From Halobacterium wangiae (GTDB lineage Archaea > Halobacteriota > Halobacteria > Halobacteriales > Halobacteriaceae): a stretch of 64,000 nucleotides of DNA. The DNA lies in contig NZ_CP089588.1 in assembly GCF_021249345.1 (NCBI RefSeq), positions 1,178,001 to 1,242,000 on the forward strand. Reading direction: 5' to 3'. How positions within the stretch are numbered: position 1 is the stretch's first letter; each line of letters opens with the position of its first letter. Positions 30,486 to 35,431 of the stretch are shown here, piece by piece. The notes beneath the pieces were generated by a model. That model saw only the letters and a program-made list of their open reading frames with translations. It was not told where the DNA came from and did no database searches. Both the position numbers and the translations under genes were made by a program.

Positions 30486-30658
30486 GGCCTCGATTTCTGC
30501 GACCAGCGTTCCCGAGCGGCGGCTTCTGCCGTGAATCGACCACTCTCCTCGGTGCGACCCCCTCCATCGGGCAGAAGTCCGGTTTCCCGCACCTGTAGAG
30601 CGCTACGCTCCCGTTTTCTGTGTGCCAGTGTCAGTGGTAGAGCGACACCAGCTAGAAT

Positions 30659-30686
30659 CGATAAATCGTATTCTGCGATATAGAAT
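30659..30686 (-). promoter_or_regulatory. Four-copy promoter motif, copy A
   Basis: On the minus strand it reads ATTCTATATCGC, then 7 nt, then GATTTATCG; GCCACCC lies 6 nt upstream of it. Copy D (34967-34994) matches 26 of 28 positions. TTTAT in the right half has the look of a TATA box, and the ATATCGC half an operator or BRE-side element. No ORF lies downstream in its direction. Confidence 0.6.
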
Positions 30687-30828
30687 TGCCAGGGTGGCGC
30701 ACGAGAACGAGCCAGACGAAGCCCCGCAGATCGACGGCTGAGCGGCCAGGAGCGCGAAATCCCGAGTTATGACCGCCTTACTGGCCGTCTCGGGGCGTTC
30801 GAGCAGTTGTCCGGGGTCGAGGCCCGCA

Positions 30829-30836
30829 GTTTATAC
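30829..30836 (+). promoter_or_regulatory. TATA box that decides the recJ-like start
   Basis: GTTTATAC is centred 28 nt before ATG 30861. The earlier in-frame start (30807) lies upstream of this box and an ATG near 30840 is too close to it, so 30861 is the supported, leaderless start. Confidence 0.7.
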
Positions 30837-30860
30837 CCGATGGCGCGCAACACTCTCTCG

Positions 30861-32267
30861 ATGGACGCACCGGTCCCGGAACTCGAAGCGCGGGCGGACG
30901 CCTGCGCAGACGCCCTCCGCGACGCCGACAGCGTGTTACTGGCGTCGCACATCGACGCCGACGGCCTGACGAGCGCTGGCATCGCGTCGACGGCGCTCGA
31001 ACGCGCCGGCATCACGCACGACGTGGTGTTCTCGAAACAGCTCGACGACGAGGAGATCGCGGGCATCGCGGCCCACGACCACGACACCGTGCTGTTCACG
31101 GACTTCGGGAGCGGGCAACTGGATAGCATCGCCGAACACGAGGAACGGGGCGACTTCACACCCGTCATCGCGGACCACCACCAGCCCGCCGAGGCGGACA
31201 CCCAGTTCCACCTGAACCCCCTGCTGGAGGGCGTGGACGGCGGGAAAGAACTCTCGGGCGCTGGCGCCAGCTACGTCCTCGCGCGGGCACTACTCAGCGA
31301 CGAAGCGACGGACCTCGCGGCACTCGCGGTGGTCGGCGCCGTCGGCGACATGCAGACGGTGAACGGCGAACTCGTCGGCGCGAACGTCGCTATCGCCGAG
31401 GAGGGCGTCGCGGCGGGCGTGCTGGACACCGCGAAGGACCTCGCGCTGTACGGCACGCAGACGCGGCCGCTGCCGAAACTGCTGGAGTACGCCAGCGAGG
31501 TGTACGTCCCCGGCATCACGAACGACCAGAACGGCGCGATGCGGTTCCTCGACGGCCTCGACGTCGACCTCCACGACGGCGGCGACTGGCGGACGTGGGC
31601 GAGCCTCGACCACGACGAGCGCCAGACCGTCGTGAGCGCGCTCGTCAAGCGCGCGGTGCGCAACGGCGTCTCCGGCGACAAGGTGACGGACCTCGTTGGG
31701 ACGACGTACACGTTGCTCGAGGAGGAAGCTGGCACGGAGCTCCGGGACGCGAGCGAGTTCTCCACCCTGCTGAACGCGACGGCTCGCTACGAGCGCGGCG
31801 ACGTGGGTCTCGCGGTCTGTCTGGGGGAACGAGGCGAACCGCTGGACTCCGCCAGGGAACTCCTGCGGACCCACCGCCGGAACCTCTCGGAGGGGCTGTC
31901 CTGGGTGAAAGACGAGGGCGTCACCGTCGAGGACGACCTCCAGTGGTTCCACGCGGAGGACCGCATCAGGGAGACCATCGTCGGCATCGTCGCCGGGATG
32001 GCGCTGGGCGCTGAGGACGTCGAGAGCGACCGCCCCATCGTCGGTTTCGGGGAGAAGAACGACGAGGAGGTGAAGGTGTCCGCGCGTGGCACCCCGGCGC
32101 TCGTCAACCGTGGACTCGACCTCTCCGTCGTGATGCGGGAGGCCTCCCAGTCCGTCGGCGGCGACGGCGGCGGCCACACGGTCGCCGCGGGCGCGACCGT
32201 ACCGAAGGGCGAGGAGCGCGCGTTCCTCGACGCCGCGGCCGACGAGATCGCCGCCCAGATCGAGTGA
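30861..32267 (+). CDS. RecJ-like DHH-family phosphoesterase/exonuclease
   Basis: This 468-aa protein starts MDAPVPELEARADACADALR. The DHH core has ASHIDADGLTSAGIAST (motif I), LFTDFGSG, IADHHQP (the DHH motif, about residue 98), and a C-terminal DHHA1 domain ending GGDGGGHTVAAGATVP. Haloarchaea have several such RecJ homologues, annotated as single-stranded-DNA-specific exonucleases; related archaeal proteins (GAN/RecJ) join the CMG replisome, but which paralogue this is cannot be decided here. Confidence 0.88.
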   Translation: MDAPVPELEARADACADALRDADSVLLASHIDADGLTSAGIASTALERAGITHDVVFSKQLDDEEIAGIAAHDHDTVLFTDFGSGQLDSIAEHEERGDFTPVIADHHQPAEADTQFHLNPLLEGVDGGKELSGAGASYVLARALLSDEATDLAALAVVGAVGDMQTVNGELVGANVAIAEEGVAAGVLDTAKDLALYGTQTRPLPKLLEYASEVYVPGITNDQNGAMRFLDGLDVDLHDGGDWRTWASLDHDERQTVVSALVKRAVRNGVSGDKVTDLVGTTYTLLEEEAGTELRDASEFSTLLNATARYERGDVGLAVCLGERGEPLDSARELLRTHRRNLSEGLSWVKDEGVTVEDDLQWFHAEDRIRETIVGIVAGMALGAEDVESDRPIVGFGEKNDEEVKVSARGTPALVNRGLDLSVVMREASQSVGGDGGGHTVAAGATVPKGEERAFLDAAADEIAAQIE

Positions 32268-32304
32268 CGGAACGCCTAACTGAGGGCGGATCGAACGGTT
32301 CTGC

Positions 32305-32766
32305 GTGCTCCCGAGCCTCGACGCACTGCGAGCGCGGATCTACCGCCTCGGGTTCTCCTACTTCCCCGCGTACTGGACGACGGGCGCGAAACTCGTCGAC
32401 CTGGCGCCGGACTTCTCGTCCGCTCGCGTGGCGCTCCCCCTGAACTGGCGCACGCGGAACGTCGTCGGCACCACGTTCGGCGGCAGCATCTACGGCGCCG
32501 TCGACCCGGTGTACATGGTGCTGTTGCGGAGCCGCCTCGGCGACGCGTTCACTGTCTGGGACCGGGCGGCGAGCATCGAGTACCACGAACCCGGCAGGGG
32601 GACGCTGTACGCCGACTTCGAGGTGCCCGACGCGGACGTCCGAGAGCTCCGCTCGCTGGCCCCCGGCGAGTCGACCGAGCGCGTCTACGAGGTGGCGGTC
32701 GTCGACGCCGACAGCGAGGTCCACGCCGAGGTGGAGAAGACCCTGTACGTGCGTCGCGACGAGTGA
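32305..32766 (+). CDS. DUF4442 (hotdog thioesterase-like) protein
   Basis: This 153-aa protein from GTG 32305 (VLPSLDALRARIYRLGFSYF) has the hotdog-fold features of DUF4442: an N-terminal helix, RVALPLNWRTRNVVGTTFGG, a long helix SIYGAVDPVYMVLLRSRLG, and strands VWDRAASIEYHEPGRG and YEVAVVDADSEVHAEVEKTL. Members resemble acyl-CoA thioesterases but lack proven activity. It follows the recJ-like gene by 37 bp and may share its transcript. GTG was chosen because the downstream frame has no earlier ATG in the conserved part. Confidence 0.85.
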   Translation: MLPSLDALRARIYRLGFSYFPAYWTTGAKLVDLAPDFSSARVALPLNWRTRNVVGTTFGGSIYGAVDPVYMVLLRSRLGDAFTVWDRAASIEYHEPGRGTLYADFEVPDADVRELRSLAPGESTERVYEVAVVDADSEVHAEVEKTLYVRRDE

Positions 32767-32823
32767 CTACCAGGTCGCTTCGCAGACACGCAGCCAGTTC
32801 TCGAACGCTATCCTCCGCACGTC

Positions 32824-32845
32824 CGACGCCGGGTAGCCGGCGTCG
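32824..32845. repeat. 9-bp inverted repeat after DUF4442 gene
   Basis: CGACGCCGG, GTAG loop, CCGGCGTCG, 57 nt past the DUF4442 stop. A possible RNA hairpin at the transcript end; there is no T-tract. Confidence 0.55.
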
Positions 32846-32927
32846 TACCCGGGTCGTCTGCCGGTTAGCCCACCGTAGCTGCGCCACAGATTGTGGGCGG
32901 GAGAGGAGTGTACTTTCGGCCACCCCC

Positions 32928-32958
32928 AATTTTATATATCGCAGCATGGAGTTTATCG
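32928..32958 (+). promoter_or_regulatory. Four-copy promoter motif, copy B
   Basis: It has CCACCC just upstream, then TTTTATATATCGC and GTTTATCG at the family spacing (TATCGC to the end of TTTATCG is 22 nt, as in copies A and D). It is the most diverged copy but keeps TATCGC, the AT pair and TTTATCG. No supported ORF follows; transcription would begin near 32980. Confidence 0.5.
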
Positions 32959-33798
32959 TGTGCGGGGAGAGGTCCACGAGAGGGCTGGACGAAACGCCCA
33001 GAGACAGCCACTCGAGTGGTGAGAGCCGGGATTCCACTCCCACGGGCGCGCGAGAGGACACGACACAGGAGGAGAACACAGAAGGACCACAGGGTGAGCC
33101 TCGACCAGCACCTGGAGGCCTGGTGTGGAACGACCATCGAGCTCCGCCCGGGAACGGAACCGGCCGTCGAAACCGAGGTGCCGACCAACGACGACCTGCC
33201 GACGGCCCCGGCGATCGAGACGAGTCGAGAGTCGCGGGCCACAGGACGAGAGCCACCGACAGACCCGGAACGTGAGCACATCGGGAGCGGTGAACGGTGA
33301 TACGGCGAGCGGCGGAAAGTCTCGTCACGGCGAGGCAACCAGACGTCCCACAGTCGCCGAAGAGAACGGAGGGTAGGAGACCAGCGTTCAGTCGAAATCA
33401 GGACTCCGGCCCTGCGAGGGACCCCCGAGCATCTCGAAGACTGTCGATTCGCGAGGCCTGAGAGGAGGGAGACGAGAGACACCGAGGGCAAATTACCGGA
33501 TAGAGACGGGGAGAGAACCTGCGACCACGTCCAGCGAGGCTAGCTGCAGACCGCTAGAATCCACGAAGGCCGATACCAGCCCTCGAGTGCCAGCCAGGAG
33601 GCGACTCCTCGCAACGCAGTCCAGGCGGCGGGCTCCGACGTGGCTGGCCACCAGTTCAACGTCGCCGCGGGCCCAGCGCACGGGACCACCGGTTTACCCC
33701 GGACGAGCAACCCCACAGACCGTCGCGATCGCCGTTCTAACCACGCGAAGACCCGAGCTGCGAGGAGTTCTGTGTGTGGAACGAGCCGACCAGTGGCG

Positions 33799-33826
33799 AT
33801 TCGATATCGCGATATAGGATTTATGG
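33799..33826 (+). promoter_or_regulatory. Four-copy promoter motif, copy C
   Basis: ATTCGATATCGC, then GATATAG, then GATTTATGG. It matches 24 of 28 positions of copy D. The left half here forms the perfect palindrome ATATCGCGATAT. It points right, toward the 3' end of the converging lipoprotein gene, with no ORF behind it, so any RNA would be antisense to that gene's end. Confidence 0.6.
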
Positions 33827-33887
33827 AGAGATCGTCGCGACCTTTCCGGGAACTGCGCGAAGCGCCACAGAAGAGGGTTTCAACGCC

Positions 33888-34922
33888 TCAGGCCGTGAAT
33901 TCGACGGGGCGTGTGCCCATGAACGCGGTCTCGTAGCCCTCGTGGCGAGCGACCTGGGGAGGAGCACCGACGCCAAGCACGAGTTCGTCGCCGGTCTCGA
34001 CTGACGGCGCGCGAGCGGCGTAGTGGTAGCCCAGCGCCGGATCCAGCGACGGCGCGAGAGTAGCGTCGAACAGCACGTCCTCGCCGCGGCGGAGTGTGGC
34101 GAACAGCGTCATGAACGGGAGCGGCGTCGACGACGGGGTGTGCGGCGAGACGGCGAGGTAGGCGTCACCGCCGTCGAAAGCGTCGGAGACCACGGTGACG
34201 GCGAACGTGGTGTCACCGACCGCCTGGACGCCGACGCTGTCACCCGGGAGGGCGTCGACGGTTGGCGTGCTCGCGACCGGGACGCCGTCGAGTGGCCGTG
34301 GCTCCAGGGACCCCTTCCGTGAAGCGCGTTCCGGTGTATCGAATGCGACGTCCGGGGTGTCGTTCGCGAGCGTCATCGAGAACTGGAACGCCGCTACAGG
34401 GTCCAGCCCCTCCAGTTCTCGCGTGTACTGTGTGTCCGACGGCGCGGTCTGGACACGGACGTCGTAGGTACCGGGTCCGCCGAGTTCGACGTTGTCACCG
34501 TAGTGGAAGCCGAGTCGCTGGGAGAGCATCGGCCAGCCGGCGGCGTCGTAGAACTGCTCGTCCCCGCGTGAGACCGTGAGCCGGGGTTCGGCGCCGCAGA
34601 GCACGCGCCCGGTCTCGTCGTCCCACACCACTGCGAGCAAGTGGACGTCGCCGTCGGCCTCGACCGGGCTCGTGCGTTCGCCCGTGACGGCCCAGAACCG
34701 GAGCGGGTGGGTGAGACGGAGCGCACAGCGGAGCCGGCCGGACTCGGCGATCTCGACGACCCGGAGTGCAGCGGCGTGCGTGGGGACGTAGACGCCCTCG
34801 GGCCGGCCGTCGGCGGTCGGCGGCGGCGTCGGCGACTGCGACGAGCGACCCGAACAGCCGGCGAACCCAGCGAGGCCCGCCAGAAACGCTCTCCGGCCGA
34901 TTTCCGGCGATTTCGGGTACAC
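33888..34922 (-). CDS. Tat-exported lipoprotein of unknown function
   Basis: This 344-aa protein starts at GTG 34922 (VYPKSPEIGRRAFLAGLAGF). The twin-arginine RR, a short hydrophobic stretch and lipobox LAGFAGC (Cys about 23) indicate Tat export and lipid anchoring outside the membrane. The mature part is beta-rich: ALRLTHPLRFWAVTGERTSP, VHLLAVVWDDETGRVLCGAE, YHYAARAPSVETGDELVLGV. Family unknown to me (possibly DUF7350-like, related to iron-transport accessory proteins; not verified). Its promoter is copy D of the four-copy motif. Confidence 0.75.
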   Translation of the reverse strand: MYPKSPEIGRRAFLAGLAGFAGCSGRSSQSPTPPPTADGRPEGVYVPTHAAALRVVEIAESGRLRCALRLTHPLRFWAVTGERTSPVEADGDVHLLAVVWDDETGRVLCGAEPRLTVSRGDEQFYDAAGWPMLSQRLGFHYGDNVELGGPGTYDVRVQTAPSDTQYTRELEGLDPVAAFQFSMTLANDTPDVAFDTPERASRKGSLEPRPLDGVPVASTPTVDALPGDSVGVQAVGDTTFAVTVVSDAFDGGDAYLAVSPHTPSSTPLPFMTLFATLRRGEDVLFDATLAPSLDPALGYHYAARAPSVETGDELVLGVGAPPQVARHEGYETAFMGTRPVEFTA

Positions 34923-34950
34923 GACCGGCTATCCGAGCGGCAGAAACAAG

Positions 34951-34966
34951 GCCGTTACGCAACGGC
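34951..34966 (-). repeat. 6-bp inverted repeat at the predicted transcription start
   Basis: GCCGTT, ACGC, AACGGC, directly downstream of copy D on the minus strand. It could be an operator or the first hairpin of the lipoprotein mRNA leader. Confidence 0.45.
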
Positions 34967-34994
34967 CGATAAATCGTATTTCGCGATATAGAAT
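34967..34994 (-). promoter_or_regulatory. Four-copy promoter motif, copy D
   Basis: On the minus strand it reads ATTCTATATCGC, GAAATAC, GATTTATCG, with GCCACCC just upstream. Its TATA part lies about 48 nt before the lipoprotein GTG. The similarity to copy A continues weakly past the motif (GGGTGGCG and ACGAGCC blocks on the plus strand up to about 35020). Confidence 0.6.
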
Positions 34995-35083
34995 CGAGTG
35001 GGTGGCGACGAACTCAACGAGCCCCTCGCACCCCGAGACCGCTAACCGACGGGCACTTGGCGCGTCCAGTCCAACGTTCGGCA

Positions 35084-35431
35084 ATGAGCGAGTTGACGCC
35101 CGAGGAGTTCGAGGAACAGAAGTACGTCGACTACTTCCCGAAGCTCCAGACCGCGTACAAGCGCGCGTTCAACGAGATGAACGAGAACTACGACTCCGAC
35201 ATCGTCCACGGCATCGACCAGACGGTTCTCGCGGAAGCCGAACCCCACTACGAGGGCGACGGCGAGTTCTCCCTCGACCTGCCCGAGGACCCGGCGTCGC
35301 AACTCGATGGCGTGCTGGCCAGCGACGAGAAGGTCGAGCGCGTGCTGGAGCTGTACCTCGAGGAGCTCCAGCGACAGCTCCAGAAGATGTTCGGGGTCGG
35401 CGAGGCCGCACCGGGCGACGAAAAGGCCTAA
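35084..35431 (+). CDS. Conserved haloarchaeal protein (DUF5783-like)
   Basis: This 115-aa acidic, mostly helical protein begins MSELTPEEFEEQKYVDYFPK. It has NEMNENYDSDIVHGIDQTVL in the middle and the helix VERVLELYLEELQRQLQKMF near the end. No cysteines, membrane segment or catalytic motif. Assigned to DUF5783 from memory; unknown function. It is 25 bp upstream of the NifU-domain gene and may be co-transcribed. Confidence 0.72.
   Translation: MSELTPEEFEEQKYVDYFPKLQTAYKRAFNEMNENYDSDIVHGIDQTVLAEAEPHYEGDGEFSLDLPEDPASQLDGVLASDEKVERVLELYLEELQRQLQKMFGVGEAAPGDEKA

Follow-up and report, generated by a model that had tools for sequence, protein, structure and literature searches.

The short motif that occurs four times in the window (the whole stretch of 64,000 nt from Halobacterium wangiae that was analysed) is probably the recognition site of a chromosomal tyrosine-recombinase system present across the class Halobacteria. 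This reading is drawn from sequence, and it explains together the adjacency of the sites to recombinase genes, their arrangement in facing pairs, their indifference to promoters and the reversals described below. The steps that were observed are the existence of a site family, the pairing of its members, their linkage to a recombinase and the reversal of the recombinase module.

All four copies reported in an earlier note on this DNA are present where it had placed them (Table 1), and recounting gave the same identities, 26/28 between A and D and 24/28 between C and D. The 28-nt pattern with up to three mismatches had three matches in the window against 0.00 expected from shuffles. Site B reads TTTATATATCGC where an exact ATTCTATATCGC is expected, and AGTTTATCG replaces GATTTATCG. 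The shorter pattern TATCGCN9TTTAT was found exactly four times in the whole 3.11-Mb genome, always inside the same 4.3 kb of the window, while its backwards control had no exact match in that genome. C and D form a convergent pair of 1196 bp, B and C are direct repeats, and the complete A-B-C-D layout is repeated in another genome of the genus (G001). Site C lies 64 bp past the stop codon of the lipoprotein gene and site D 47 bp upstream of its start. The claim that only D serves a clear gene holds for D and the lipoprotein but is incomplete, since on the opposite strand the DUF5783 gene starts 90 bp from D, and A, in reverse orientation, precedes a RecJ-like DHH gene by ca. 155-175 bp. No facing partner was found for A, a single site that has its counterpart at the same place in G001 (L051). 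The upstream GCCACCC was confirmed in A, B and D; as a family trait it did not hold, only a slight preference for C being detected over 90 sites.

Table 1. Positions of the motif copies and of neighbouring features in the window (numbered along the 64,000-nt stretch).
Feature	Position	Strand	Remarks
Site A	30661..30686	-	26-bp family member; profile search of genome, E 5.3e-6
Site B	32931..32956	+	weakest of the four, E 1.3e-3
Site C	33799..33824	+	convergent pair C-D, left end; E 2.6e-6
Site D	34969..34994	-	right end of the C-D pair, E 1.0e-6
M19 dipeptidase gene remnant	32770..32841	-	last 24 residues/codons, 79% identical to G001
Non-coding DNA between direct repeats B and C	32957..33798		not coding, not conserved, without fold signal, A-rich on the + strand
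Tat-type lipoprotein gene (DUF7350)	33888..34922	-	between C and D, bracketed likewise in G001
DUF5783 gene	35084..35431	+	in many genera a site, in one orientation or the other, 50-100 bp from the start

One reading offered in the earlier note, a promoter and operator for a set that may include non-coding RNAs, would concern the segment between B and C. When 40 relatives were searched, a full-length match was found solely in the genome itself, and the segment is not kept even in G001. Its folding was no better than that of shuffled sequences (z +0.83), Rfam gave nothing credible in the window, nor at a loose threshold in positions 32700-34000, and a tRNA scan gave none. On the other hand, the M19 dipeptidase gene that survives here as a remnant is intact in G001 and in other genomes of the genus, where it adjoins such sites, and the G001 counterpart of site B lies upstream of the complete gene. 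It is probable, then, that site B was orphaned when the dipeptidase gene was deleted in Halobacterium wangiae. With B a probable orphan, and with the adjoining DNA unconserved, non-coding and folding no better than shuffled sequence, the main support for non-coding RNA genes is gone and this reading is not supported. Between positions 32950 and 33550 there is a strong excess of A over T on the + strand (AT skew about 0.45); other non-coding brackets have AT skews of both signs.

The first set of sites was biased by the TATCGC seed, and the model was rebuilt from a less biased set, in which TATAGC is as common as TATCGC. Copies picked without a seed give an asymmetric 26-bp consensus, ATTYTATAT[AC]GCGRNATRYRRTTTAY. 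Conservation extends beyond the positions searched, with ATT at the left, AT in the middle and RR before TTTAT. In the lineages of five genomes (G014, G016, G020, G028 and G035) the majority of sites have TATAGC in place of TATCGC, which in Halobacterium is the case mainly for the recombinase-side sites; co-evolution of the site and its binder is a possible cause. The best dyad scored only 2.9 of the total 39.9 bits, i.e., there is no clear inverted repeat but just a weak 22-bp palindrome. Of the 59 related genomes, 48 contained TATCGCN9TTTAT, clearly in excess of the backwards control, and by sequence models most relatives have about 5-15 copies each. A weight-matrix search of relatives, as the earlier note had proposed, yielded 254 matches against 2 in reversed sequence, at loci partly selected by the motif. 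Among 147 well-assembled genomes sampled over the phylum, sites at E 0.001 or better were present in all 28 Halobacteriales, and seven of the 119 others had one marginal site each. A viral origin was considered and rejected, 25 exact matches in 2.9 million viral contigs being about chance by our estimate. Origin-recognition boxes were another candidate; no Orc gene was noticed beside the sites. In the open-access papers searched, we found no earlier description of the site.

The recombinase is a protein of about 350 aa with the Pfam Phage_integrase domain and a SAM-like domain. Its best curated NCBI family is XerA (score 118.6, below the cut-off of 220), and its relatives of solved structure are E. 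coli XerD and Pyrococcus abyssi XerA (PaXerA, 4a8e). The closest named relative of the protein encoded in the genome of the window is that of Halobacterium bonnevillei (91% identical). The gene is preceded by one for a small DUF5805 protein, for which no mention was found in the open-access literature and whose N-terminus looks to us ribbon-helix-helix-like. Of 40 relatives, 35 have the recombinase, among them every one of the 31 good assemblies, and over the phylum it was found in 28/28 Halobacteriales against 0/119 of the other genomes; this co-distribution with the sites tracks a single clade and is not independent evidence. The gene is mostly single-copy, with one or two copies per genome across the class. 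All 37 orthologues share the catalytic R, H, R and Y, and all have Asp at the third catalytic position, usually His or Trp; a lysine is present within the hairpin motif NKRKR.

The linkage between the recombinase and the sites was established with loci fetched by the protein alone, independently of the motif. In a first set, 26 of 30 loci had a site just past the recombinase stop codon, mostly within 0-65 bp (maximum 137) and always facing the gene. In a second set of 78 loci (five of which repeat genomes of the first), we found a facing 3' site within 200 bp of the stop codon in 68, an upstream facing 5' site in 69 and both in 61, against 9 matches in total in the reversed-sequence control. 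Every one of the larger recombinase loci (L228-L245) has a facing pair around the gene. A second recombinase family, too divergent to match Pfam well, has a site upstream of the gene at 17 of its 22 loci. The tyrosine recombinases at L151-L172 form a family of about 420 aa, with an absent or marginal Pfam match, often lie on secondary contigs and have an upstream site of their own.

The arrangement of the sites was studied in nine genomes searched whole for neighbouring copies within 5.5 kb. Of the 35 cases, 29 were convergent, 3 divergent and 3 tandem. Random placement would give 0.27 convergent pairs, and shuffling of the strands gave a mean of 8.7 and a maximum of 18. The dispersed repeat considered in the earlier note was close to the truth as regards a conserved family, but the copies are mostly set in facing pairs instead of being randomly scattered. 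Some brackets contain rio2, DUF5783-nifU, recombinase genes or, in the window and in G001, the Tat lipoprotein gene; others surround 0.1-0.9 kb of DNA that is non-coding. Among the non-coding interiors beside DUF5783 in one genus, alignments between species did not exceed about 40 bp, even though the flanking gene was the same. One convergent pair (G000:C1:533073-533925, L111) surrounds an ORF for a double zinc ribbon of 56 aa, along with some 560 bp that are non-coding, and is partly conserved in several genomes of the same genus (77-87% over about 200-330 bp). In five genomes of the genus the non-coding region upstream of a ParA-type ATPase gene is unusually long and contains a facing pair, 0.4-0.9 kb before the gene (L046, L056, L086, L120 and L143). 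The only consistent exception to the facing arrangement is a divergent pair beside a RIO-kinase gene that adjoins Pno1/Dim2-like and eIF1A-like genes (L060, L070, L074 and L125). Finally, a site was found upstream of an ncsA-like tRNA-thiolation gene with an ISH-type transposase gene close by (L008, G000:C1:2064527), and the ncsA-like gene of G008 (L078) is also preceded by one.

The distances between sites and start codons have a peak at 44-70 bp on both sides of the sites and are never shorter than 36 bp, and sites are kept near rio2, DUF5783 and ncsA across genera or species. Both facts would suit the operator of a conserved transcription factor, with sites in either orientation just upstream of the core promoters of a small regulon (rio2, DUF5783, ncsA, recJ and the recombinase). 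We consider such an operator, which the earlier note had also put forward, unlikely. Although often near starts, the copies frequently lie 18-100 bp past a stop codon between convergent genes, where there is no promoter for an operator to act on. This applies to about half of the recombinase-side sites: in 31 of 65 loci the gene downstream of the recombinase is convergent and the 3' site persists, sitting between two gene ends with no promoter to regulate. Nor does a plain operator explain the facing pairs (29:3:3), or why they surround non-coding DNA that is not conserved.

Reversal of the recombinase module is seen from its neighbours. The f2-f3-f4 operon is found at the 5' side and codirectional in up to 29 loci, and at the 3' side and opposed in up to 17, with the same gene end always abutting the module in both orientations. 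When L276/L283 are compared with L278/L279/L282/L318 (families f2 and f6), or L249 with L336 (f19 and f50), both flanks prove to be swapped in place, and one-flank swaps were found inside Halorussus (L276 vs. L303 and L312 vs. L339). Considering all the gene families present on both sides, 22 are compatible with a flip and 9 with a non-flip, three of them being compatible with both. These comparisons rest on one genome per species and on a home-made gene caller that fails in low-GC genomes. On a protein tree of 46 loci the orientation of f2 needs 3 changes, against 14.1 when shuffled, and the well-supported branches force only 1. Thus, as far as can be judged from the sequences, the reversal of the module is real but rare in evolution. 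Other mechanisms, too, can produce small local inversions. Judged from one genome per species, active phase variation is improbable: orientation is stable over whole genera, its changes are strongly clustered on the tree, and inversions become fixed only rarely.

Both orientations between facing sites were seen for the recombinase module only; the rio2 bracket had the same orientation in all comparisons (11/11 and 7/7) and was never flipped. This, and the preservation of pair geometry around DNA that is not itself preserved, could be accounted for if a protein, perhaps the recombinase itself, bridged facing sites into a small loop and insulated the genes inside without any recombination. We regard a purely architectural role as quite unlikely, since architecture alone needs neither the invariant catalytic residues nor a flipped recombinase module. 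Another possibility would be that the sites mark the ends of an ancient transposable element, as its terminal inverted repeats, with the tyrosine recombinase as its transposase and the other brackets as non-autonomous or captured copies. The facing asymmetric ends, one of them 18 bp from the recombinase gene, and the different flanks of the module among families would fit. However, an element present in one or two copies per genome class-wide, with orthologous neighbours over wide clades, a rio2 bracket that stays in place across genera and matches in viral contigs that are about as many as chance would give make this very improbable. Lastly, that the copies are inward promoters (TTTAY as the TATA box) producing antisense or non-coding transcripts from both ends is very improbable as well, for while RRTTTAY resembles an archaeal BRE/TATA element and copies often aim into gene 3' ends, conservation spans 26 bp, the DNA to be transcribed is neither conserved nor structured, and by eye several genes have a second TATA-like box nearer the start, at the leaderless position.

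Returning to the recombinase-site reading, the recombinase would bind two facing sites and hold them in synapsis, and strand exchange could take place at the synapsed pair, inverting the segment between. Its everyday job may be to keep the paired sites together, or chromosome resolution. Any role that we assign to the candidate sites at the rio2, DUF5783 and lipoprotein brackets is putative. In the window, C and D would be the pair that brackets the Tat lipoprotein gene, and A and B would be single sites, B having been left behind by the gene deletion. Against the recombinase-site reading count the lack of a clear inverted repeat, the Asp at the third His/Trp position and the rarity of the module inversion. 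By itself, it leaves the unflipped rio2 bracket and the peak at 44-70 bp from start codons unexplained, and this peak also suits a regulatory element. More tentatively, a domesticated XerA-like recombinase and its DUF5805 partner, in all Halobacteria, with a few facing pairs around core genes including the ribosome-maturation kinase gene rio2, might constitute a conserved device for organising the genome or bracketing genes, one that has no described counterpart and recombines only occasionally.

It would seem that a conserved recombinase, together with its sites, has been left without a name in an archaeal class that is well studied. In polyploid, multi-origin archaea little is understood of how dimers are resolved and how the genome flips locally, and the system provides a concrete candidate for chromosomal site-specific recombination, possibly of Xer type, in such organisms. 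It is also a caution against taking every TATA-like AT-rich island of a GC-rich genome for a promoter.

There are several known systems to which this one can be compared. The hallmarks of XerA/dif are a catalytic R-K-H-R-(H/W)-Y, two 11-bp inverted arms with a 6-bp spacer and one, rarely two, sites at the terminus. In Pyrococcus abyssi the dif site is a 28-bp palindrome, normally one per chromosome and near the terminus (PMC2958812, PMC3646895). As there, Halobacteria have a single chromosomal tyrosine recombinase, with XerA as its best NCBI family and a match to PaXerA. However, the protein falls under the family cut-off, and the haloarchaeal sites are asymmetric, do not form the two-arm palindrome and number 5-15, at many places, in facing pairs and adjoining the recombinase gene itself. 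In pdif modules the sites are also oppositely set. The pdif/dif modules of Acinetobacter plasmids and chromosomes are short gene modules of mixed contents between recombination sites (PMC6449649, PMC13141974, PMC12907356). The resemblance lies in oppositely set sites around discrete genes of mixed function (29 of 35 close neighbours being convergent). The differences are that the haloarchaeal system covers a whole archaeal class, brackets the recombinase gene itself and has core genes such as rio2 inside; and while pdif/dif modules have XerC/XerD sites and are horizontally mobile, the haloarchaeal brackets are known from one genome per species. Invertible segments switched by tyrosine recombinases, such as fimS and the tail-fibre switch of the haloviruses phiCh1/phiH, also have facing inverted sites around a segment and a recombinase gene inside or near it. 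Here, in contrast, reversal is rare and phylogenetically clustered and several brackets are never flipped. The haloarchaeal integrases of the SNJ2/pR1SE type are tyrosine recombinases of the same superfamily that act on mobile elements (PMC8371274), whereas the XerA-like recombinase is a class-universal chromosomal gene. The system resembles both Xer recombination and the Acinetobacter dif modules, but it is filed as neither, given its many sites per chromosome and their departure from the palindromic dif form.
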